A stretch of DNA of 35,363 nucleotides from Thiotrichales bacterium. GTDB lineage: Bacteria > Pseudomonadota > Gammaproteobacteria > Beggiatoales > Beggiatoaceae. The stretch's first letter is position 1, and the number at the start of each line of letters is the position of its first letter. The DNA is taken from assembly GCA_016744475.1 (NCBI GenBank), contig JADGEH010000045.1, forward strand, positions 1 through 35,363, in the 5' to 3' direction. This document shows, piece after piece, positions 1 through 33,695 of the stretch. The position numbers and the translations under genes are program-made. The notes under the pieces were generated by a model. It saw only the letters and a program-made list of their open reading frames with translations, was not told the DNA's origin and searched no databases.

Positions 1-29
1 TTGAATTTATCGATCAGATTACCTATAAA
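1..29 (+). promoter_or_regulatory. candidate sigma70 promoter for the RR-PurD gene
   Basis: TTGAAT at 1-6 and TATAAA at 24-29 are separated by 17 bases, close to the sigma70 consensus. Transcription would start near 36 and leave a leader of about 215 nt before the ATG at 251. The leader holds a short stem (CTGCG/CGCAG around 135-157), but I recognise no known riboswitch. A second -10-like TACAAT lies at 53-58 without a convincing -35. The start codon at 251 has no clear Shine-Dalgarno sequence. The call rests on sequence match only. Confidence 0.45.
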
Positions 30-250
30 ACAATAACTTTGGCGAAAAATGTTACAATGCCTTTTTGGTTTTTGATTTTTAATCTTCATTCTTATTATGC
101 AAACCGTGTGGACAAATAAAGCTGTCCAACAAGCTGCGCATTCCTGTCAACGCAGTGTGGAGCAAAGGCTATTTCTGAGTGTCTAAATACGTTTTTACAC
201 ACCCAAAAAAAGCTTTTGCATAACTTCCATTCATTTGCAACCAGACCCCT

Positions 251-2326
251 ATGAAACAAGAAAACATACTAGTAGTTGATGACAAAAATGATGGTCAAGT
301 CATCCGCGATTATCTGCGTACTCAAGGTGTTAAAGCTGATTGGGAAAAAAGTTGTGCAGGGGTACGCGAGTATCTCAAGCAACATCCGGTCGATTTAATC
401 GTATTAGATGTGGTACTTCCCGATGGCAATGGTCTCGCTTTGGTGAAAGAACTGCGCCTGCAAAATCGCCGCTTACCGATCATCATGATTTCTTCTGAAC
501 GTATTCAAGAAACTGATCGCGTCGTTGGACTTGATTTAGGTGCTGATGATTACCTGCTTAAGCCGCCTAAGCTGAGAGAGTTATATGCCAAAATTCGAGC
601 TGTGATTCGGCGTTACACTGAAATGCCCGTGCAAAATAACGAGACTGAAAGCGTTGATGCAGGCGACCAAAGTATTGCGCATTTTGGCCCTTACACCTTA
701 AACGTTACTCAGCGTCGTTTAAGCCGAGGTAGTCAGGAAATTAAACTGACGGACGCGGAATTTAACTTATTAAAAGTATTGTTGGCGCATTCTTATGACA
801 CCTTAAATCGTGATCAACTGACAGCATTGTTGTCGGGAGAACATCATAAGGAAGATCACCGCACCATTGACGTGCGCATTAGCCGCTTACGTCGCCGCAT
901 TGAGCCTGAACCCACCCGTCCTAGTTACATTCGCACCGTGCGCAAAAAAGGTTATTTATTTACCCCTGATGGTGAGCTCACGCCTGATCCCAAAGCCGAT
1001 AAAAAACGCAAGCGCGTCACTCATACGAAGAAAAAAAGAGTATTAGTGATTGGCGGAGGTGGACGCGAACATGCCTTGGCGTGGAAGTTAGCCAAATCGC
1101 CTCAAGTGAAAGAAGTATTTGTGGCACCAGGTAATGCGGGTACACATTTAGAGACTAAAGTGACTAACGTGCCGATTGGCATTGATGATTTACCCGGTTT
1201 AGTCAGCTTTGCCAAAGAAAAACGCATTGATATGACTATCGTAGGCCCTGAAGCACCACTGGTTGCCGGAGTCGTGGATACTTTTCAAGCAGCGGGTTTG
1301 CGTTGTTTTGGCCCCACCCGCCATGCGGCACAATTGGAAGGTTCTAAAGCCTTTAGTAAAGATTTTCTCAAACGCCACAATATTCCGACTGCCAGCTATG
1401 CGGTATTCACTGATATTGAACCTGCTCACGCTTATATTCGCCAACAAACGCTGCCCATTGTGATCAAAGCGGATGGTCTCGCGGCTGGCAAAGGCGTGAT
1501 TCTCGCGCAAACTGAAAATGAAGCCTGTCAAGCGGTGGAAGATATGTTGGCGGGCAATGCTTTTGGTGAAGCAGGGCATCGAGTCGTGGTGGAAGAATTT
1601 TTATACGGCGAAGAAGCCAGTTTTATTTGTATGGTGGATGGCAAACACATCTTGCCGATGGCCACTTCTCAGGATCACAAAGCGCGTGATGTCGGTGACA
1701 CCGGCCCAAATACCGGCGGCATGGGGGCTTATTCTCCTGCTCCTGTAGTGACCCCCGATATTCATGAACGCATCATGCAAACGGTGATAGAACCGACTGT
1801 GCGCGGCATGGAAGAGGAAGGCTATCCTTACACGGGCTTTTTATATGCAGGCGTGATGATTGCCCCTGATGGAGAACCCAAGGTGCTGGAATTTAATTGT
1901 CGCTTTGGTGATCCTGAAACCCAACCGATTATGATGCGGCTCAAGTCGGATTTACTGGAATTATGTGAAGCGGCACTGAATAAACGCCTACATAAAATCA
2001 CGGTTGAATGGGATAAGCAGGTCGCCCTTGGGGTCGTATTAGCCGCTGGCGGTTATCCAGCGGCTTATGAAACCGGAAAACCCATTACTCTGCCAGAAAA
2101 ATTAGCCCGTAAATACAAAGTGTTTCATGCAGGTACCACAGAACATGAGGAAGCGATTGTCACCAATGGTGGACGAGTCTTGTGTGCTTGCGCATTGGGT
2201 AAATCAGCACAAGAAGCACAAGATAATGCCTATCAACTGGTGGACTTAATTGATTGGGAAAATATGTATTTTCGCCCAGATATTGGCTACCGTGCGGTGG
2301 CTAGAGAACAAGAGAAAAATTCTTAA
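251..2326 (+). CDS. purD: OmpR-type response regulator fused to phosphoribosylamine-glycine ligase (PurD)
   Basis: One uninterrupted 691-aa protein. Residues 1-120 are a receiver domain with the acidic pair D10/D11, phospho-acceptor D53, S81 and K104, so phosphorylation chemistry looks intact. Residues about 144-240 are an OmpR/PhoB winged-helix DNA-binding domain ending in the usual IRTVRKKGYLF motif. A basic linker (about 241-262) leads into a full-length PurD (about 263-691) that starts with VLVIGGGGREHALAWKL and contains the GARS signature GDTGPNTGGMGAYSP. PurD is an ATP-grasp enzyme joining phosphoribosylamine and glycine to make GAR in purine synthesis. No in-frame ATG, GTG or TTG lies in the linker just before the PurD part, so it should be made as a fusion. 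No histidine kinase and no purH lie in the window. Both domain calls are very secure; the role of the fusion is unknown. Confidence 0.93.
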   Translation: MKQENILVVDDKNDGQVIRDYLRTQGVKADWEKSCAGVREYLKQHPVDLIVLDVVLPDGNGLALVKELRLQNRRLPIIMISSERIQETDRVVGLDLGADDYLLKPPKLRELYAKIRAVIRRYTEMPVQNNETESVDAGDQSIAHFGPYTLNVTQRRLSRGSQEIKLTDAEFNLLKVLLAHSYDTLNRDQLTALLSGEHHKEDHRTIDVRISRLRRRIEPEPTRPSYIRTVRKKGYLFTPDGELTPDPKADKKRKRVTHTKKKRVLVIGGGGREHALAWKLAKSPQVKEVFVAPGNAGTHLETKVTNVPIGIDDLPGLVSFAKEKRIDMTIVGPEAPLVAGVVDTFQAAGLRCFGPTRHAAQLEGSKAFSKDFLKRHNIPTASYAVFTDIEPAHAYIRQQTLPIVIKADGLAAGKGVILAQTENEACQAVEDMLAGNAFGEAGHRVVVEEFLYGEEASFICMVDGKHILPMATSQDHKARDVGDTGPNTGGMGAYSPAPVVTPDIHERIMQTVIEPTVRGMEEEGYPYTGFLYAGVMIAPDGEPKVLEFNCRFGDPETQPIMMRLKSDLLELCEAALNKRLHKITVEWDKQVALGVVLAAGGYPAAYETGKPITLPEKLARKYKVFHAGTTEHEEAIVTNGGRVLCACALGKSAQEAQDNAYQLVDLIDWENMYFRPDIGYRAVAREQEKNS

Positions 2327-2339
2327 AATTGCTACGAAT

Positions 2340-2363
2340 ACAGGGCATTGCCAATGCCCCTGT
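2340..2363 (+). terminator. hairpin downstream of RR-PurD gene
   Basis: ACAGGGCATTG (2340-2350) pairs with CAATGCCCCTGT (2352-2363) with one bulged C, followed by GTTTGT. It lies 13 bases after the purD stop and probably terminates that transcript, although the T-tract is weak. It also argues against a TTG start at 2348 for the next gene. Confidence 0.55.
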
Positions 2364-2449
2364 GTTTGTCATACTCAGTCATATCTCCCTCTGCCTTTTT
2401 CATAGACGCTCACGCCAGTGTCTATCTCCCTATCGGGAACTCATCGCTT

Positions 2450-3337
2450 ATGCCAAACGCCATCACTTCACCTTTTGCCCCTGAAAATGCCCAAGCTTAT
2501 GCCGTTTGGCGCGAACAAAAATTACACGATTATCCGACCCAGGTTGAAGATTTCATGGTTGAAATCAATCATCCCAATCAATTATCCAACGCCGAACATG
2601 AGCATATTTTGCGTCTATGCCGCAAAACCAATATGGCTTTATATCGTGCTCAGCGTCCTATGGATAAAAGGGATGTAAAAGCCCTAGGTCTGCAATTTGG
2701 TTTGCAACGTTTAGATCATAATCTGTGCGCCGACCCAGACGGCATTGCAGCGCTACAAATCTCTACGGGTGGGCGTTCGCAAGAATACATTCCTTACAGC
2801 AATCGTCCGATTAACTGGCACACTGATGGTTATTACAATAAGCCCGAAGAGCAAATACGCGGGATGATTTTGCATTGTGCTCGTCACGCGGGAGAAGGCG
2901 GTGAAAATGCGTATTTGGATCATGAAATCGCCTATTTACTCATGCGTGATGAAAACCCTGATTGGATCACAGCTTTAATGGACGCGGATGTGATGACCAT
3001 TCCTGCCAATCAAGAAAATGGACATGAAATTCGCCCCGCACAAACTGGTCCTGTGTTCTCGATAGATGAGCGAGGAGCCTTGCATACACGTTACACAGCA
3101 CGCTCGCGTAATATCGAATGGAAAGCTGATCCACGGGTGAGTGATGCTATCGCTTTTTTAACAGACTTGTTTCACTCCGATAATGCCTACATATTTCGTT
3201 ACCGATTAAACCCAAATGAAGGGGTGATCAGTAATAACGTGCTGCACAATCGAACGGGTTTTGCGAATGGTGACCATGCAGCACAACAGCGGTTACTGTA
3301 TCGAGCGCGTTATTTTGATCGCATGGCCAATACTTAA
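2450..3337 (+). CDS. TauD/TfdA-family Fe(II)/2-oxoglutarate-dependent dioxygenase
   Basis: A 296-aa protein from the ATG at 2450. An in-frame TTG at 2348 would add 34 residues, but these look non-coding and begin inside a terminator hairpin. The fold is supported by the HxD iron motif in NWHTDGYYN (H124, D126), a distal histidine in VLHNRTGF (H266) and arginines in YRARYFDR (R285 or R287) that would bind 2-oxoglutarate. Family members hydroxylate small substrates such as taurine or other acids. The substrate cannot be read from the sequence, and no sulfonate transporter or desulfonation gene is adjacent, so taurine should not be assumed. It is probably cytoplasmic and soluble. It lies between purD and the small-protein cluster and may be its own transcription unit. 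Confidence 0.82.
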   Translation: MPNAITSPFAPENAQAYAVWREQKLHDYPTQVEDFMVEINHPNQLSNAEHEHILRLCRKTNMALYRAQRPMDKRDVKALGLQFGLQRLDHNLCADPDGIAALQISTGGRSQEYIPYSNRPINWHTDGYYNKPEEQIRGMILHCARHAGEGGENAYLDHEIAYLLMRDENPDWITALMDADVMTIPANQENGHEIRPAQTGPVFSIDERGALHTRYTARSRNIEWKADPRVSDAIAFLTDLFHSDNAYIFRYRLNPNEGVISNNVLHNRTGFANGDHAAQQRLLYRARYFDRMANT

Positions 3338-3360
3338 GAGGTTGTTTGGAAAATAGAGAA

Positions 3361-3386
3361 CTCCATCAATAGCCTCTAAAATGGAG
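3361..3386 (+). promoter_or_regulatory. possible hairpin masking the ribosome binding site of the 64-aa gene
   Basis: CTCCAT (3361-3366) is complementary to ATGGAG (3381-3386). The right arm contains the GGAG that would serve the ATG at 3393, so the stem could hide the ribosome binding site. The stem is only 6 bp with a 14-nt loop, so this is weak. Confidence 0.25.
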
Positions 3387-3392
3387 CTTTAT

Positions 3393-3587
3393 ATGAGTAA
3401 AGAAGATGGCATGTTGTATTTGAGTGAATTATTAATACAACATCATGACTTAGCATCTTTTGATGCCTTAGTGGATTTAGTCGAACAAAACAAACGAGGT
3501 TATCGTTTTTTTCGTATGGATATTAAGCCCCCGTTTCAGGACACGCCTGAAAACTGGGAAGATCGCTTAGAAGCCACGTTTTATTAG
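3393..3587 (+). CDS. small hypothetical protein, first gene of the rspA/cas6-like cluster
   Basis: A 64-aa protein that I do not recognise. The ATG at 3393 is chosen over that at 3381 because TGGAG at 3382-3386 is well placed as its ribosome binding site. The product is soluble and acidic, with a predicted helical N-half (GMLYLSELLIQHHDLASFDA) and a C-terminal region containing YRFFRMDIKPPFQDTPENW. It has no signal peptide or membrane segment. Its stop is TAG made of one host T plus the first two bases of the adjacent MITE. With the MITE removed the stop would be TAA and the next gene would begin about 30 bp downstream, suggesting an ancestral operon with the genes at 3779, 4496 and 5257. Confidence 0.65.
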   Translation: MSKEDGMLYLSELLIQHHDLASFDALVDLVEQNKRGYRFFRMDIKPPFQDTPENWEDRLEATFY

Positions 3588-3745
3588 ACTTGTTGCGAGG
3601 GGTAGGCATCGTAGCGAAAAGGTGTGGTTTTGAGGCAGTTTTTTCGGTTTTTTGAGGCGAATAGCGGGCGTGTGTTGATAAAAAGCGGAAAAACAGGCCA
3701 ACATCCACGCCTTTGCAGTCGATGGATAGCCCTTGCAACAAGTCT
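3586..3745 (-). mobile_element. 160-bp MITE, copy 1 (inverted relative to copy 2)
   Basis: Terminal inverted repeats AGACTTGTTGC at 3586-3596 and GCAACAAGTCT at 3735-3745 are flanked by a 3-bp ATT duplication (3583-3585 and 3746-3748). It has no coding capacity for a transposase. Its reverse complement matches the element at 5597-5757 over most of its length, and its core also matches the element at 26785-26944. It separates the 64-aa gene from the 234-aa gene. The left end lies inside the stop codon of the upstream gene. The parent transposon is not in the window. Confidence 0.88.
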
Positions 3746-3778
3746 ATTAACTTTGGCCTCATACACGTTTAGGTTTAT

Positions 3779-4483
3779 ATGAAATTTCTTAAAGAAGAAC
3801 AACCTGCATTCAGTTCAGAATTTGCCGATGCACAACAATCCAAAGCCATTTTGCAATCCCAGGCTTTAGAACTACAACAACAACTAGACGCTTTGGGCGA
3901 AGCAGCACCGCCGTCAGAGCGTGGACCATTATTATTACAAATGGCTCATGCTCAAGTCGGCGCAGAGTTAATGCAAGAAGCCGAACATAATGCTGAAACG
4001 GCCTTTCATATTTTTTTACAAGCAGAACAATGGGAGCCAGCCGTAGAAGCTTGTGACATCTTATTTCGCACTGAATTGCCCGGTGCTTTAGCCGCTCTAG
4101 GGCGTGGCGTATGGTTAGCCGTCACCTTTCCTATTGATCCTGAGCTGAGCGTAGCCATGTTGGAACATATCGTTGAAGAAACACCCAGTGAGTCTGACGG
4201 TGCCGCAGTGGCTGCCGCCACGGGTTGTTATTTAGTGGATTTACGTGCAGAAGGTAAAGCACGCGATAAACTCAGCTTCTTTACTAATCAATTACTGGGC
4301 AAAGTAGCGAGACGACATAGCGATGTAGAGACCCAAGCTCAATTTGATGCTTGGATTCAACGCTTGCAACTCGATACCCCCGAATATTTTTTAGGGCGTT
4401 TGAGTTTAATACTGGAAGTGCTAGTACAAGAAGATTGGTGGTTTGAACGTGATGAGTTGCGGGCAAAAATCCCTGATCAATAA
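3779..4483 (+). CDS. hypothetical helical protein in the rspA/cas6-like cluster
   Basis: A 234-aa soluble protein of no family I recognise. It appears almost wholly alpha-helical. Residues about 20-45 are glutamine-rich and may form a short coiled coil (ALELQQQLDAL). Residues about 50-90 (LLLQMAHAQVGAELMQEAEHN) resemble a TPR-like helical pair, but no confident repeat array is visible. There is no signal peptide or membrane helix. The start is the ATG at 3779 with AGG about six bases upstream, just after MITE copy 1. It ends 12 bases before the cas6-like gene, so the two are probably co-transcribed and may work together. Its function is unknown. Confidence 0.7.
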   Translation: MKFLKEEQPAFSSEFADAQQSKAILQSQALELQQQLDALGEAAPPSERGPLLLQMAHAQVGAELMQEAEHNAETAFHIFLQAEQWEPAVEACDILFRTELPGALAALGRGVWLAVTFPIDPELSVAMLEHIVEETPSESDGAAVAAATGCYLVDLRAEGKARDKLSFFTNQLLGKVARRHSDVETQAQFDAWIQRLQLDTPEYFLGRLSLILEVLVQEDWWFERDELRAKIPDQ

Positions 4484-4495
4484 GCGAGATTAAAT

Positions 4496-5173
4496 ATGCT
4501 TTGGGAAGAAGACGAACAGGCAGAACACCTTGTTGTTAATGATGAAATCATAGATTTAAGTTTTGCCTTAGAGTGCAAAACACTGCCTTTAGATCACGCT
4601 TATGATTTATCCCATGCGATTCAACAAGCCCTACCTTGGTTTGCACCAAGCCCCACAGCGGGATTGCACTTAATTCATGGTGCGGAATCAGGTAATGGTT
4701 GGCAACGCCCAGAAAATCCCGACGGTACACTGTATCTATCTCGTCGCACGCGCCTAACTTTGCGCTTATCAAGCCTAGAGATTGAAAAAGCACAAGGCTT
4801 ATGTGGACAAATTCTGGACATTGCCGGACACCCGCTTAAAATTGGTACAACAAGCCAAAAACCTTTGCAGAAAACCAATATTTTATTTGCGCGACATATT
4901 TTATGTGATGCTCAGCACAGCGAAGAAGATTTCTTGCACACTGCACTGAAGCATTTAGAGCGCTTAAATATTCAATGCCGCAAAGCCATGCCGGGGCGTA
5001 GTCATCAGATAAAAACCCCGCAACAAGACTTATTCACCCGCAGTTTGATGTTGGCTGATTTAAGTATTGAGGATGCCCTGCTGTTGCAACAGCAAGGTTT
5101 AGGCGAGGGGCGCAAAATGGGTTGTGGTTTGTTTATTCCCCACAAGGGCATTAGCCCGGTGGATCAGAAGTAA
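4496..5173 (+). CDS. orphan Cas6/Cmx6-like protein (type I-MYXAN Cas6 family)
   Basis: A 225-aa protein resembling the Cas6/Cmx6 family (TIGR02807-type) by remembered family pattern. An N-terminal IDLSFALECKTLPLDHAYDL segment carries the conserved LPxDHxY with a histidine; it is followed by AGLHLIHGA, RTRLTLRL, a central NILFARHI strand, and the C-terminal glycine-rich GLGEGRKMGCGLFIP. Cas6 proteins are metal-independent endoribonucleases that cut CRISPR precursor RNA at repeat hairpins. Here there is no CRISPR array and no other cas gene within the window. The neighbours are a 234-aa helical protein 12 bases upstream and the RspA-type gene 83 bases downstream, so it may have been co-opted to bind or cleave another RNA. 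The family call is fairly sure; retained nuclease activity is unknown. Confidence 0.75.
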   Translation: MLWEEDEQAEHLVVNDEIIDLSFALECKTLPLDHAYDLSHAIQQALPWFAPSPTAGLHLIHGAESGNGWQRPENPDGTLYLSRRTRLTLRLSSLEIEKAQGLCGQILDIAGHPLKIGTTSQKPLQKTNILFARHILCDAQHSEEDFLHTALKHLERLNIQCRKAMPGRSHQIKTPQQDLFTRSLMLADLSIEDALLLQQQGLGEGRKMGCGLFIPHKGISPVDQK

Positions 5174-5256: not shown

Positions 5257-5598
5257 ATGCAATATGAAGTTAATGGAACCGTCGTTGAAACAGGTCCGAA
5301 TGGCTATCTCATTGAGCAAGGTGACTGGAGTGAAGCTTTAGCGGAAAAAATGGCTGCTGAAGATGACTTGACTTTAACCGATAAACATTGGGATTTACTC
5401 AACTATCTGCGTGATGAGTTTTTTAATAATCGTGAAAATCAACCGAATACACGTAGCATTGTCAAAGCCATGCAAAAAGCTTGGGGCGACAAGAAAGTAG
5501 ACAGTAAATCACTCTATGAATTATTCCCTAAAGACCCTTCTAAACAAGGTGGGCGCATTGCGGGCTTACCCGAAAGCCGTCGTAAAGGGGGATATTAG
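5257..5598 (+). CDS. rspA: cysteine-less DsrC/TusE-family protein (RspA type)
   Basis: A 113-aa protein of normal length for the DsrC/TusE/DsvC family. It has the recognisable core YLIEQGDWSEALAEKMA, LTDKHWDLLNYLRDEFF, RSIVKAMQKAWG and SLYELFPKDPSKQGGRIAGLP. In DsrC two cysteines near the flexible C-terminal arm carry sulfur, and in TusE one remains. Here both positions are lost: the tail reads KQGGRIAGLPESRRKGGY and contains no cysteine. Such paralogues have been named RspA and proposed to be regulatory rather than sulfur carriers. AAGGAG at 5243-5248 is a strong ribosome binding site for the ATG at 5257. The stop is TAG, formed by insertion of a MITE, with TAA as the likely ancestral stop. 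The family call is secure; the function is inferred. Confidence 0.88.
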   Translation: MQYEVNGTVVETGPNGYLIEQGDWSEALAEKMAAEDDLTLTDKHWDLLNYLRDEFFNNRENQPNTRSIVKAMQKAWGDKKVDSKSLYELFPKDPSKQGGRIAGLPESRRKGGY

Positions 5599-27026: not shown

Positions 27027-30000
27027 ATGAAACTATTATCCTATCTTTCACATTCCTTCATATTCTTTGTTTGCATCTTATTCTTCCCCCATCACATCTA
27101 TGCGGCTCCACCGGTTGCAGGTTTTGGTCATACCCTATTATTTGACGGAAATACCTATGCGCGTAGCTCTTTAGTCACCACTGCCGCGAATAACATCACC
27201 TTAGAAGCCTGGGTTAACAATACGCAACGCACAGGCAGCCAACAAATCATTTTCAGCAATGGCGCAGCAGGTTTCAATGGCTATGCTTTAGTCGTAGAAG
27301 GCAGCAACAATACGCTGAGTATTCAATGTGATGGCGTAAGCTCAGCCACTTCCAACTATGAATTACCTCTCAACGAATGGCATCACCTTGCCATCACCCG
27401 TGCTGGAGGCTTTTGGGCTTTATATGTTGATGGACAAGCCCAAGCTTTAAGCGGTAATCCTTCTCCCTTCTCCCCTTCTCAAACCACATCTTTAGCTTCA
27501 GACAGCCACGCAGACAACAGATTTCACGGACAGTTAGACGAAGTGAGAATATGGACTGTTGCACATACTGTTGCAGAGGTTCAAGCCCATATGTACACCG
27601 TGTTTGCTGGCAACGAAGCAGGTTTACAGGCTTATTGGGATTTTGAAGATGCCAGCGGCACGGTGCTCACGGATAAAACCACTCAGTTTAATGCAGAGCT
27701 ATTCAATAGCAATGATAACAACTGGATGAATACACAGATTTTTTCAGTGCGCATGGATGAAACCCTAGAAGGGGTGTTGCAAGGTGGCGATGCAGAACGC
27801 GATGCAATACGCTTTAGTGTGCAAAACAATGATGAATCTGCGATCCAAATCATTGATTTAAATACAGGTCAGTTTCGCTACACACCACACACTTCAGGTA
27901 TCCGCAGTTTTTCTTATTTTGTCAGCGATGATAGCGGCAGTTCTGCTGTTACTACTGTTGCAGTTAATGTCACAACACTCAAAGCCGATGGCGGGGTTCA
28001 GGATGTCGCTGAAGGCGACAGCAGTTCTGGGTTGAACAGTTTACGCGAGGTCATCGCTCATGCGCGTGATGGCGATACGATTACTTTTCGCCAGCCCACC
28101 TTAACCCTCAATCGTCCTATTTTCATTGATAAAAACCTGCATTTTGCGGGCACTGGACAACACATTGAGGGTGGTCATAGCACGCGCCTATTTGAGATCA
28201 GTGGTGCTACAGTCAGTTTTGAGCAGTTGTATTTTGAAAAGGCGCAAGCCGATAAGGGTGCCGCTATGCTGCTGAGTAACGGCGCACAAGTCACGATCAA
28301 CAACAGCGTTTTTAAGGATAACCAAGCCACAGATGTCGGTGGTGCAATAGCGACCGATGGCTCCGGTGTTAGCTTAAACATTCATCAAAGCAGTTTTCTC
28401 AACAACCAAGCCCTGTCAGGCAGCGCTATTAGTTTAGCCGCAGGCGATACGGGCACCTGGACGCATAACACGCTGTCGAGCAATATCAATAGCAGCACCG
28501 GAGCCAGCGTTATCGCTACTGGAAATGTCTCTTTATTTAACAACATCATCGCCAACAGCCAAGGCGCAGACTGCATCGGTTCGCCTGTTAGCTCGCACAA
28601 TTTAATTGAAGATGGCAGTTGCGCAACAGGCGCTGAGAACTTAGTCACAGGTGATCCGCTGTTAAGTGCTTTTCAATCTTACGGCGGTGTCATGCAAAGC
28701 TTCGCGCTATTGCCCGCCTCTCCGGCATTAAATGCAGCGGGTGCCGCGCATTGCCCAAGCACTGATTTATACGGCACATCTCGCCCACAAAATAAGGCTT
28801 GCGATCTAGGCACTCATGAAAAATTCCCTCCCGCCTTTACCAGCACGGTGCTATCAATAGCCACTTCTCAGGTGCCTTATCTTTACTTAGTCACATTCCA
28901 AGATAACGAAAGCCTTGATGCCGCCAGCCCGCAGATCAGCGCGACCACTTTACCCACCTGGCTGCAATTTCTTGATAATGGAGATAACACCGCAAGCTTA
29001 AGCGGCACGCCCACAGCGGCAGATGTTGGAATACATCCGGTGCTACTGACTTTGAACTCTGGCAGCGAAGACATTGAGCACAGTTTCAACATAGCCGTCT
29101 CCGGTTGTACCCCCAATCCTGTTGTCACTAATAATGCCGACAGCGGCACAGGTTCTTTACGCGAAGCACTGGCGATAGCCTGTGAAGGTAGCACGGTCAG
29201 CTTTGATGCGGATGAGCACATTGTCCTCAGTTCTGACAGCTTGCGTATCACTCAAGCCTTAAACATTGATGGCGGCGCACAACGCATTACCTTAGATGCC
29301 AATGGACAACACCGGGTTTTTTGGATACATCACACCAGCCCCCAGGTGTCGCTAAAAAACCTCACTTTAATCAATGGTATCAATCAGGATGATGTTGGTG
29401 GTGGCGGCATTTACGCCGACAATGCACAACTGCATATGGAAAACCTCGTACTCAAAGATCACACTGCCTATGGCGCATTCGCAGGCGGCGCTATTTATCT
29501 CGCGCAAGGGCACCTAGAGGTGTGGAATAGCCAATTCATAGGCAATCTCAGCACATCGCTCTCTCGCACCTGCCACACTGAAACGCCTACTTGTGTCGCC
29601 AATGCCAGCCCAAACACAGCCGTAGCAGGTGGCCTTTACATCGCCCCCAATGCCAGCACCAGCTTGCTGAATAACACCTTTGTCAGCAATGTAGCCGCAC
29701 AGGGTCAAAGCCTATATAACGCAGGCACGGTGCAGCCCTTTGCTAACAACGCCTTTCCTAGTTCAGTGGCTTCCTCTGCATCAAGCGCGATGTGCATAAA
29801 TACTGGACAGATGTTGCAAGCCTCTCACAACTTGATCAGCGATGGCAGTTGCAACGCCGCTTTAACAGCGACCGTTCAGCTAGCGCCCTTAGAAGACAAT
29901 GGCGGCGTGGTCTACACCACGGATTTTCTCAAAGCCGATGCCGCCTTAATCAATGCCGGAGATAACAGTGTTTGTCTAGCCACCGACGCACGCGGTATTC

Positions 30001-33000
30001 CGCGCCCACAAGGCAAAGCTTGCGATATTGGTGCTTATGAAAAACGCACACCCACATTTAGTAGCCAAGCCCCCACGCAAGCGCAAGAAGACGCGCTGTA
30101 CACCTACGCCATTCAATTTGTCGATCACGAAACCAGCGACGGACTCATTCCTCAAATCAGTGTGTTAAACAAACCCGATTGGTTAGCCCTTACGCACATT
30201 CAATCCAACAGCGCGGTGCTGACAGGCACGCCTAATAACAGCCATGTTGCGAGTCAGCAACTCGTGAGCTTAAGCCTCAACGCAGGCATTGATGATGTGG
30301 AACAACACTTTAGTATCCAAGTTAGCAACACCAATGACGCACCGATATTGCAAACCAGCACGCCCGCTTTACTGCTCAATATTGATGAAGATGAAGTCAA
30401 TCACCTCGGTACTTTAGTGTCCGAGATTATTGCTTCCGTCAGCTTATCGGTAGATTTGATCACGGATGATGACAGCGTGAGCATCGGTGCTACAGAAGGC
30501 TTAGCCATCACTCAAGTGGATAACAGCACAGGCGATTGGCAATTTAGTGTGGATAATGGCGGCACCTGGCAAACGCTCGCAGACGTGAGTACGCAACAAG
30601 CCCGCTTGTTAGCAGCAGACACCCAAAGCCGCATCCGCTATGTGCCGGGACAAGATTTTAATGGCAACACGCAATGCCAATTTCGCGCTTGGGATACCAC
30701 TCAGGGTGACAATGGCAGCCTCATGGATGTCAGCCTTCAAGGCGGCACCCGCGCTGTGAGTACCGACACCAACGCCGCACAAATTACCGTTTTGCCCGTC
30801 AATGACGCGCCCACCTTTCAGCACGGCAACGATCAATTACATCCCGTAGACAGCATCGGCGACCAAAGCCTTGTGGGATGGGCGCATAGCTATGATGTCG
30901 GGCCCGATAATGAAGACGGGCTACAGCAAATCAGCCATTTTGTGCTCAGCGTGGACGACCCCGACAACATTCTCAACGATGCCGTACCTGTGCGCTTAGA
31001 AGCCAATGGCGACTTGCATTATCAACTCAATTCAGGCGAGGGGATTGCGCAGATACAGATACAAGCGGTCGATAGCGGCGGCACGCCCAACAACGGAGCT
31101 GATACTTCACCCCTTGCCACCTTGCTCATTCAAAAAACCGCCTTGCAACTCAGTCTTAACCGCGCAGAACAGATTGAAGATCAAGGTGTTGCCGCCGTCA
31201 CAGCAACGCTGACCCGCACTGGAAGTACAGCGCTGCCCCTCACCGTTGAACTCAACAGCAACGACACCAGCGAAGCCACGCTACCCGCCACACTCACCAT
31301 TCCCGCAGGCCAGACTTCCGCTGATTTTGCCATTGATATGATCGATGATAATCAACTGGAAACGACACAAACCGTGACATTTACGGCAGCTCATCCGCAA
31401 TACACCGATGCCAGTGCCACCTTAAAAGTGCTCGACAGCGAGCGCACATTGACCGTCCATGTCGTCGGCGAAGGCCAAGTCCAACACGATAGCGTCGTCT
31501 CGCTCGGCGAATCACACCGTGTGCTCCCCACCCCCGACAGCTACGGCTGGGCTTTTGATCACTGGACAGGCGATTGCGATGCCACAGGCCAAGTCATCAT
31601 CGACCAGGATGAAATCTGCACCGCCCATTTTCTCCAACGCCAATTCGCCCTTACCGCTCAAGTCCTAGCCGGAGAAGGCCGTCTACAAGGCACAGGCACC
31701 TTTTTATCCAATCAACATCTCAGCCTTCACGCTGAACCCGCCCCCGGTTGGACGGTCGAAGCCTGGAGCGGCGATTGTGATGGTCTCGGACAAGTTTATT
31801 TAGACACCGACAAACGATGCAGCGTGAGTTTCGCCCCCGTCTTGAAATACTACGATTTGCAACTTGATGTCGTCGGTTTTGGTCGTGTGACCGGCGCAGG
31901 CACTTACACCGCCATGAGTCAGGTGCAAGCGCAAGCGCAAGCCGAGCCTGCTCTAGGCCAAGCCTTTGCGGGTTGGCAAGGCGATTGTGATGCACAAGGA
32001 TTCGTAGTCATGAACGCGCCCAAAAGCTGCACCGCCTATTTTATCACCGCCAATCATTTACTCACTGCCACCACGCAAGGACAGGGCAGCATCAGCGGTA
32101 CGGGCGGCTATCTACATAATGTCACCGTACAACTCACCGCTACACCCGCACCAGGCTGGCAATTAGTCGGCTGGCAAGGTGCTTGTGATGGCAACGGTCA
32201 AGTGCTCATGGATCGCAACCAACATTGCATCGCCATCTTCATCTTCAGTCAAGGTTACTATCTCTTAAACACCGACAGCCAAGGCCAAGGACAGGTACAA
32301 GGCGCAGGCGCTTACGCCTTTGGTAGCACCGCACAACTGCTCGCCACCCCAGAAGAAGGAGAACAATTCATCCGCTGGAGCGGCGATTGTGACAGCAACG
32401 GGCAAGTCATCATGAATGCTGACAAAACCTGCTACGCACAGTTCACAAACACCCAAGCCGACACCCAGTTCAACCTCAATGTCAGCGTTTCAGGCGCAGG
32501 CCAAGTGACAGGCAGCGGCACCTACCCCGCCTTAAGCAGCGTATTATTAAGCACCGAACCCGCTGCGGGCTGGGTGTTTGCAGGCTGGCAAGGTGATTGT
32601 CATGGCGACGCACAACAGCGCGTACTCCCCGTTTGGTTAGACGCGCAGAAAGACTGCCAAGCCCTTTTCACCCAAGATGCTTATCGCTTAAACGCCTCAA
32701 GCAGCGAAGGCGGACACGTCGATGGCGCAGGCGAATTCCGCCACGGCAGCCGCCTATTGCTTCATGCCGTGACCCACCCAGGCTTTCAGTTTGCAGGCTG
32801 GGGCGGCGATTGCGATGCCAACGGACAAGTGCAGCTATCCGCCGACAAAACCTGCACCGCCAGCTTTATTCCATCCCCCACTATCGCCAATCCTCTCGCG
32901 CAGGTCACTCCCGCACTGATCGCCAGTCTGCAACCCAGCGATATAGCCGCCGTGACACCCAGCCTCATGGCGTGGCTGAATGCCGAGCAAGTGAGCGCCA

Positions 33001-33695
33001 TCAGCCCTACTGTATTCAGCGCTTTTAACGCCGCACAACTGGCTAATCTCAGCCCAGAAGTGCTCGCACAATTCAGCATCGCAGCACTGCAAGCCCTGCC
33101 GCCTGCCACGCTCAGCGATTGGCGCGTCGCACAACTGCAAGCCCTGCCCGACACAGTGATCAACGCCTTCACACGAGAACAATTAGCCGCTCTCAATCCT
33201 CTGCAAATGCAGCAAATGCCCTCAACTGAACTCAGCCGTTGGTTGACCTGCCTAGCCCCTCAACACATCGCACCACGAGATGTCGTACCGTTCCTGCCCA
33301 CAGGCTGGTCAATCGACTTAGCCTCCGGCGATCTCCAAGTACCTAACAACACGCCCATCCGCTACCGTTCTTTAAGCAACACGACTGCACCCGATTTAAG
33401 TTTAAGTTTTGCACTCGGCGGGCAAGGGCGCGACGGCAGTGTGCTCAGTCAGTTACAACAAGTGGTCGATGCCTTAGTCCCAGGATTTGTACTCGCACAA
33501 GCAGAGGATGGCTGGCTAGAAGTGACGCAAGCGCTGGATAATAATGAATCAGTGATTCTATTGCGCCTATGGCCCGACACCACAGCGCTATGGACAGGCC
33601 GAGAGGGTTCATTAGACGTACAATCCAGCCCCGGCAGTGTTTCACTCAACACCCGCAACGGCATGTTGTTTCAGTTCTTGCCTGAAGGGGGTTAA
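27027..33695 (+). CDS. giant secreted multidomain surface protein with InlB-like and octapeptide repeats
   Basis: A 2222-aa protein. Residues 1-27 are a signal peptide (hydrophobic FIFFVCILFF, cleavage after IYA). Then, by recognisable motifs: LamG-like lectin domain (about 32-232, EAWVNN, LNEWHHLAITR, GQLDEVRIWTVAH); a cadherin-like segment (to 320); a parallel beta-helix with the SLREVIAHARDGDTITF start (about 321-600); a putative Ig domain (about 604-693); a second beta-helix opening with GTGSLREALAIACEG (about 695-1010); a second Ig-like domain; NDAP-type cadherin repeats (about 1105-1370); a Calx-beta domain (about 1373-1470); seven InlB/Flg_new-like repeats of about 67 aa, each with GxGxVxGxGxY, WxGDCD and CxAxF (about 1473-1957); fourteen 8-aa helical repeats (1960-2071); and a C-terminal domain of about 150 aa I do not recognise. 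There is no LPxTG, PEP-CTERM or obvious beta-barrel, so how it is held on the surface is unknown. Probably an adhesin or matrix protein. Its base composition is visibly more G+C rich than the nuo genes. Confidence 0.9.
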   Translation: MKLLSYLSHSFIFFVCILFFPHHIYAAPPVAGFGHTLLFDGNTYARSSLVTTAANNITLEAWVNNTQRTGSQQIIFSNGAAGFNGYALVVEGSNNTLSIQCDGVSSATSNYELPLNEWHHLAITRAGGFWALYVDGQAQALSGNPSPFSPSQTTSLASDSHADNRFHGQLDEVRIWTVAHTVAEVQAHMYTVFAGNEAGLQAYWDFEDASGTVLTDKTTQFNAELFNSNDNNWMNTQIFSVRMDETLEGVLQGGDAERDAIRFSVQNNDESAIQIIDLNTGQFRYTPHTSGIRSFSYFVSDDSGSSAVTTVAVNVTTLKADGGVQDVAEGDSSSGLNSLREVIAHARDGDTITFRQPTLTLNRPIFIDKNLHFAGTGQHIEGGHSTRLFEISGATVSFEQLYFEKAQADKGAAMLLSNGAQVTINNSVFKDNQATDVGGAIATDGSGVSLNIHQSSFLNNQALSGSAISLAAGDTGTWTHNTLSSNINSSTGASVIATGNVSLFNNIIANSQGADCIGSPVSSHNLIEDGSCATGAENLVTGDPLLSAFQSYGGVMQSFALLPASPALNAAGAAHCPSTDLYGTSRPQNKACDLGTHEKFPPAFTSTVLSIATSQVPYLYLVTFQDNESLDAASPQISATTLPTWLQFLDNGDNTASLSGTPTAADVGIHPVLLTLNSGSEDIEHSFNIAVSGCTPNPVVTNNADSGTGSLREALAIACEGSTVSFDADEHIVLSSDSLRITQALNIDGGAQRITLDANGQHRVFWIHHTSPQVSLKNLTLINGINQDDVGGGGIYADNAQLHMENLVLKDHTAYGAFAGGAIYLAQGHLEVWNSQFIGNLSTSLSRTCHTETPTCVANASPNTAVAGGLYIAPNASTSLLNNTFVSNVAAQGQSLYNAGTVQPFANNAFPSSVASSASSAMCINTGQMLQASHNLISDGSCNAALTATVQLAPLEDNGGVVYTTDFLKADAALINAGDNSVCLATDARGIPRPQGKACDIGAYEKRTPTFSSQAPTQAQEDALYTYAIQFVDHETSDGLIPQISVLNKPDWLALTHIQSNSAVLTGTPNNSHVASQQLVSLSLNAGIDDVEQHFSIQVSNTNDAPILQTSTPALLLNIDEDEVNHLGTLVSEIIASVSLSVDLITDDDSVSIGATEGLAITQVDNSTGDWQFSVDNGGTWQTLADVSTQQARLLAADTQSRIRYVPGQDFNGNTQCQFRAWDTTQGDNGSLMDVSLQGGTRAVSTDTNAAQITVLPVNDAPTFQHGNDQLHPVDSIGDQSLVGWAHSYDVGPDNEDGLQQISHFVLSVDDPDNILNDAVPVRLEANGDLHYQLNSGEGIAQIQIQAVDSGGTPNNGADTSPLATLLIQKTALQLSLNRAEQIEDQGVAAVTATLTRTGSTALPLTVELNSNDTSEATLPATLTIPAGQTSADFAIDMIDDNQLETTQTVTFTAAHPQYTDASATLKVLDSERTLTVHVVGEGQVQHDSVVSLGESHRVLPTPDSYGWAFDHWTGDCDATGQVIIDQDEICTAHFLQRQFALTAQVLAGEGRLQGTGTFLSNQHLSLHAEPAPGWTVEAWSGDCDGLGQVYLDTDKRCSVSFAPVLKYYDLQLDVVGFGRVTGAGTYTAMSQVQAQAQAEPALGQAFAGWQGDCDAQGFVVMNAPKSCTAYFITANHLLTATTQGQGSISGTGGYLHNVTVQLTATPAPGWQLVGWQGACDGNGQVLMDRNQHCIAIFIFSQGYYLLNTDSQGQGQVQGAGAYAFGSTAQLLATPEEGEQFIRWSGDCDSNGQVIMNADKTCYAQFTNTQADTQFNLNVSVSGAGQVTGSGTYPALSSVLLSTEPAAGWVFAGWQGDCHGDAQQRVLPVWLDAQKDCQALFTQDAYRLNASSSEGGHVDGAGEFRHGSRLLLHAVTHPGFQFAGWGGDCDANGQVQLSADKTCTASFIPSPTIANPLAQVTPALIASLQPSDIAAVTPSLMAWLNAEQVSAISPTVFSAFNAAQLANLSPEVLAQFSIAALQALPPATLSDWRVAQLQALPDTVINAFTREQLAALNPLQMQQMPSTELSRWLTCLAPQHIAPRDVVPFLPTGWSIDLASGDLQVPNNTPIRYRSLSNTTAPDLSLSFALGGQGRDGSVLSQLQQVVDALVPGFVLAQAEDGWLEVTQALDNNESVILLRLWPDTTALWTGREGSLDVQSSPGSVSLNTRNGMLFQFLPEGG

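Follow-up and report, generated by a model that had tools for sequence, protein, structure and literature searches.

A response regulator–GAR synthetase fusion gene in relatives of Beggiatoa: architecture, origin and predicted function

Architecture and conservation of the fusion gene

The window analysed here, a 35,363-nucleotide stretch of contig JADGEH010000045.1 from a Thiotrichales bacterium (Beggiatoaceae), carries at 251..2326 (+) an rr-purD fusion gene that joins an OmpR-type response regulator to a complete GAR synthetase (PurD). The gene is an intact single open reading frame (ORF) of 691 codons, with an ATG start and no internal stops, and its predicted product of 691 aa contains all Pfam domains of both partners. 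Four further proteins (P0002–P0005) are homologous fusions of the same architecture as the window protein (P0001), one of them being that of G001, the other genus member compared. The fusion is confirmed as real, in line with a preliminary description of this DNA, and the fused PurD is the sole copy found in the source genome (G000).

The receiver domain occupies residues 1-121 (251..613, +), where Pfam Response_reg (PF00072) matches residues 6-116 with an E value of 2.2e-20. It is followed by an OmpR-type winged-helix DNA-binding domain at residues 142-242 (674..976, +), which is matched by Trans_reg_C (PF00486) at residues 162-237 (E 4.9e-20; profile positions 2-77 of 77), and for which OmpR structures are found by sequence match; a winged helix of the Trans_reg_C type thus lies C-terminal to the receiver. 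PurD spans residues 262-687 (1034..2311, +) and consists of GARS_N (263-363), GARS_A (364-557, E 1.1e-82), and GARS_C (592-681), so that its Pfam span is 263-681 and its N, ATP-grasp, and C domains are complete; all five Pfam profiles are covered over their full length or their full length minus one position. The acidic pair (D10 and D11), the phosphoacceptor aspartate (D53), the Ser/Thr (S81), and the lysine (K104) of a receiver are common to all five fusions and to the unfused regulator of G016, a genome described below, which bears out the earlier reading that D53, K104, and the whole winged helix are intact. R116, in the helix through which receivers pair, is absent from P0005 and from the G016 regulator, and this counts against the explanation favoured below. 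From these sequence features, phosphorylation-dependent DNA binding is predicted for the regulator half, and GAR synthesis is predicted for the PurD half. The predicted structure model of the fusion has a pTM of 0.63, too low to claim any arrangement between the halves, and the VIA-align structural listing contains only PurD and ATP-grasp folds, the receiver half being barely probed there.

Both halves are about equally constrained, and the regulator half is kept as if working. Averaged over all pairs of the five fusions, identity is 0.77 for the receiver, 0.75 for the winged helix, and 0.80 for PurD, against 0.34 for the inter-domain stretch and 0.31 for the linker. Between G000 and G001, the receiver has a dN of 0.129 with a dS of 1.93, and dN is 0.171 for the winged helix and 0.137 for PurD, synonymous changes being saturated in both; dN is given without dN/dS because synonymous sites are near or past saturation. 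The linker has a dN of 0.49 over 18 codons. The low dN in the receiver and winged helix, set against synonymous sites near or past saturation, places the regulator half under purifying selection.

The source genome comprises 5,339,001 bases in 253 contigs and is 99.99% complete. A second PurD was found in it neither by the whole-protein search nor by the GARS_A profile, which detected its target in 13 of 14 control genomes, and PurH is encoded on a different contig from the fusion gene.

Related fusions and the origin of the joined gene

When residues 1-260 were used as the query, 1062 proteins were retrieved out of 7061 candidates, and among the best 120 of these matches five (P0001–P0005) contain the receiver, the winged helix, and all GARS domains. 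P0002–P0005 are 69-77% identical to P0001 over residues 1-260, and the sequence of P0003 is the same as that of the G001 gene. With residues 150-691 as the query, the same five proteins were the only fused ones among the best 120 of 8000 scored, and a scan of genome contigs revealed four loci with free PurDs and regulators and no fusion. An assembly artefact joining two genes, although such chimeras do occur, was rejected and is given practically no weight: five distinct proteins have the regulator–PurD architecture, P0003 is counted in two contigs and P0005 in four, and the linkers differ in length while the frame is held. P0006, in which a spermidine synthase is joined to a response regulator within ‘DLIVLDLM’, a motif typical of both, looks like one such chimera and is likely to be one, in contrast to the conserved PurD fusion. 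Response regulators are also joined to the C-terminal domain of glucose-6-phosphate dehydrogenase in P0019 and to phosphoglycerate kinase in P0061; each is represented by a single cluster and may be a real fusion or an artefact.

Nearly whole-length matches to the fusion query were obtained in three of 57 genomes (the source included), namely G000, G001, and G016. In the genomes other than the first two, the PurD matches listed cover the PurD part only, and that of G016 belongs to a separate neighbouring gene. In a sample of 369 genomes of the class, for which three candidates were scored per genome and into which G001 was not drawn, 35 genomes (G000 included) had a match at 1e-195, a threshold that could miss less similar PurDs, and only the match of G000 spans both halves, so that no independent fusion was seen there.

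G016 carries the same two genes side by side and unfused. Its regulator ends with a TAA at L010:2199 and its purD begins with an ATG at 2212, leaving a gap of 12 nt; a distance of 783 nt (261 codons) separates the two ATGs, which places both genes in the same frame, interrupted by one stop. Its match to the fusion query accordingly reads through as 693 residues with one TAA. No frameshift or stop codon lies between the domains in any of the five fusions, a possibility that the preliminary description had raised, and a stop is present in the unfused G016 pair only. In an ancestor of the G016 form, the loss of one stop would join the genes without any frameshift. The PurDs of G016 and Candidatus Venteria ishoeyi agree at 428 of 431 positions, and the PurD of G011, from the same family, matches that of Beggiatoa alba at 425 of 425.

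Two trees were built, one of regulators with 27 rows (five fusions and 22 unfused regulators selected from the available loci) and one of PurD with 25 rows (five fusions and 20 unfused). The fusions form one clade in both, with support of 100/99 in the regulator tree and 98/99 in the PurD tree, and G016 stands next to this clade (98/94 and 90/87, respectively); as both trees are midpoint-rooted, its status as sister holds on the assumption of a root outside the group. Within the clade, P0001 and P0003 are paired in both trees (92/81 for the regulator and 95/77 for PurD), and P0002, P0004, and P0005 are grouped in both (93/88 and 91/85). Moving outward from G016, the next branch is that of the G014 regulator (90/89). 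In G027, G003, G014, G018, and G015, purD lies apart from the unfused regulator, at a great distance from it in G003 and on a different contig in the other four. The simplest account of these trees and gene orders is a single fusion through stop loss in a tandem pair, followed by vertical descent.

Drift could have fixed the stop loss and left the regulator half as a passive tag, which would be consistent with a single origin within one small group and with the putative nature of any coupling between the halves. Such a neutral accident is nevertheless very improbable as an account of the whole protein, as constraint on the regulator half is nearly as strong as that on PurD and the five phosphorylation-site residues examined are kept in all five fusions; drift may explain the joining event itself.

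Linker, internal start codons and flanking signals

The linker (residues 243-261; 977..1033, +) is basic and variable, with eight Lys/Arg and two Asp/Glu in the window protein, and its residues 245-256 have a pLDDT below 50 in the predicted model. Across the five fusions, it is 18-23 residues long and contains 6-10 Lys/Arg and 0-2 Asp/Glu. It is held open, in frame, and basic, and is otherwise free to change and fast-evolving.

According to the preliminary description, the region of the junction lacks an internal start codon, but two in-frame GTGs are present, at 938..940 (+; V230) and at 1046..1048 (+; V266, in the first strand of PurD), and both are candidate internal starts. These GTGs bear on whether there are two products, that is, whether the fusion is translated and free PurD is additionally made through an internal start or through cleavage of the linker, leaving the enzyme mainly unfused. 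Such a reading is possible though rather unlikely. It is in keeping with the disorder of the linker in the predicted model, with the start-like codons in the G001 junction (one TTG and two GTGs), and with P0005, in which one Met lies about where PurD formerly began and a second one at the winged-helix end. The GTG at 1046 is preceded by a weak Shine–Dalgarno-like pairing of -2.4 kcal/mol, where the background mean is -1.8 kcal/mol over 127 start-like codons, but a start there would delete residues 262-265, four of the seven residues of the first strand of PurD (residues 262-268 in the model). The GTG at 938 has a pairing of +1.0 kcal/mol and no Shine–Dalgarno-like site, and position 230 is an Ile in P0005. 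The ATG of the fusion itself also scores poorly, at +0.4 kcal/mol and with no such site, and these energies therefore separate internal starts poorly. Four of the five fusions have no Met near the junction in the protein alignment, in which GTG or TTG starts of P0002 and P0004 cannot be judged. Free PurD is thus unlikely in most of the fusion group, judging from these sequences. The earlier claim that the enzyme occurs solely in fused form is likely, though unproven: it gains from the failure to find a second purD in G000 and is weakened by the junction GTGs and by the Met of P0005 at the old start.

Promoter-like sites are no more frequent than chance predicts, with seven in 1-3800 where 7.8 are expected, and none lies in 1-250. 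A candidate terminator-like hairpin is located right after the gene (2343..2359, +), one of three such sites in 1-3800 against 4.5 expected by chance. Elsewhere in the window, positions 4496-5173 encode Cas6 (Pfam E 9.7e-63) beside a DsrC-like gene (5257-5598), and an ORF of 2222 codons occupies 27027-33695.

Proposed function and comparison with known systems

In proteins of the OmpR family, phosphorylation at the conserved aspartate promotes dimerisation and DNA binding. Among the ten window ORFs scanned, no kinase is found beside the fusion gene, which starts 250 nt from the contig end, and none directly adjoins the corresponding genes in G001 or G016; the nearest kinase in G016 is 3.1 kb upstream, beside a LuxR-like regulator of its own, as read by eye. 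Hybrid histidine kinases adjoin four of the five unfused regulators inspected (G027, G003, G018, and G015, from ORFs read by eye), and the fifth, G014, has no kinase beside it. With 118 HisKA matches in G000 and kinases beside the related regulators, phosphodonors exist. The unfused regulators of G003 (L063) and G027 (L062) lie in similar clusters with large PAS-rich hybrid histidine kinases, and the 548-aa kinase of G003 corresponds to two ORFs in G027 (read by eye). A DNA-binding domain of the LacI family (PurR type) was not found in G000 with a profile that detected it in 9 of 14 controls, which suggests that purine genes there may be under other control.

We consider it probable, on balance, that the gene specifies a single protein with both parts working, which originated in one stop loss, descended vertically, and fixes the production of regulator and enzyme at 1:1. 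In the scheme that we infer, D53 would be phosphorylated by a kinase encoded elsewhere, the receiver would then dimerise, and the winged helix would bind promoters. The promoter of the gene itself may be among the targets, but autoregulation is a guess, because the regions upstream of the genes in G000, G001, and G016 have no conspicuous operator-like repeat in common. The enzyme half, on a flexible tether, would make GAR much as usual. The main consequence would be that one promoter sets both, with regulator and enzyme at a fixed 1:1 and some PurD held near DNA; any benefit of this is putative.

A closer coupling would make the protein a true trigger enzyme, in which the occupancy of PurD by its ligands alters DNA binding, or phosphorylation alters GAR synthesis. 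Both halves are intact and constrained together, no LacI-family (PurR-type) regulator was found in G000, and there is precedent in enzyme/DNA-binding fusions described as acting in this way, such as PutA (PMC8249747). Yet the linker varies in length (18-23 aa) and sequence (identity 0.31) and is disordered in the model, which favours loosely tethered domains, and we regard this reading as doubtful. The disordered, poorly conserved linker offers no positive support for tethering, allostery, or phosphorylation-tuned GAR synthesis. An equally doubtful variant is a phosphorylation-gated trigger enzyme, in which the sole GAR synthetase of the cell would itself be a transcription factor, substrate occupancy of PurD would tune promoter binding, and a histidine kinase would tune the amount of DNA-tied enzyme; if true, a single molecule would couple an environmental signal to the second step in making purines. 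The fusion suggests that two-component signalling and purine synthesis are connected in relatives of Beggiatoa in a way not recognised before, and G016 and the fusions form a natural before/after pair for asking whether joining neighbouring genes creates crosstalk.

As the preliminary description had supposed, no response regulator–PurD fusion is described in the literature searched, as far as the titles and abstract openings listed reach, with few subscription papers covered. The joining is new to that extent, and any new regulatory principle is putative. RegX3, BaeR, and KdpE of the OmpR/PhoB family likewise consist of a receiver and a winged helix, matched over residues 4-240 or nearly so, but their chains of 227-240 residues end at the winged helix, whereas the window fusion continues for about 450 further residues that include the enzyme. 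E. coli PurD (1gso) aligns over residues 263-687, and 66% of the 412 residues aligned by structure are identical; free bacterial PurD ordinarily stands alone as a protein of about 430 aa, and that of the window is fused to a regulator.

The trigger enzymes PutA, BirA, and NadR are described as combining a metabolic enzyme and a DNA-binding function in one chain, and five trigger enzymes have been counted in E. coli K-12 (PMC8249747). The window fusion is similar, by that description, in encoding an enzyme and a DNA-binding domain on one ORF, with one polypeptide predicted; PutA is described as responding to proline itself (PMC8249747), whereas the DNA-binding part of the fusion is a response regulator of the two-component type, its receiver intact, for which ligand control is putative. 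NnaR of actinobacteria, termed an orphan response regulator, also joins a biosynthetic-enzyme domain, which is HemD-like, to a DNA-binding domain; the account of NnaR cites a Streptomyces study in which no HemD activity was found and mentions that M. smegmatis has a second HemD (PMC6277429). The HemD domain of NnaR is N-terminal by that account, whereas the enzyme of the window fusion is C-terminal, seemingly intact, and the only copy found; none of the nine Pfam families listed for the window fusion is HemD, and its N-terminus is the receiver. As far as their descriptions go, an intact receiver is joined to an intact enzyme present in sole copy neither in the trigger enzymes nor in NnaR. Few enzymes also serve as transcription factors, and to these the window fusion adds a predicted phosphorylatable receiver together with a housekeeping enzyme of which it holds the sole copy found.
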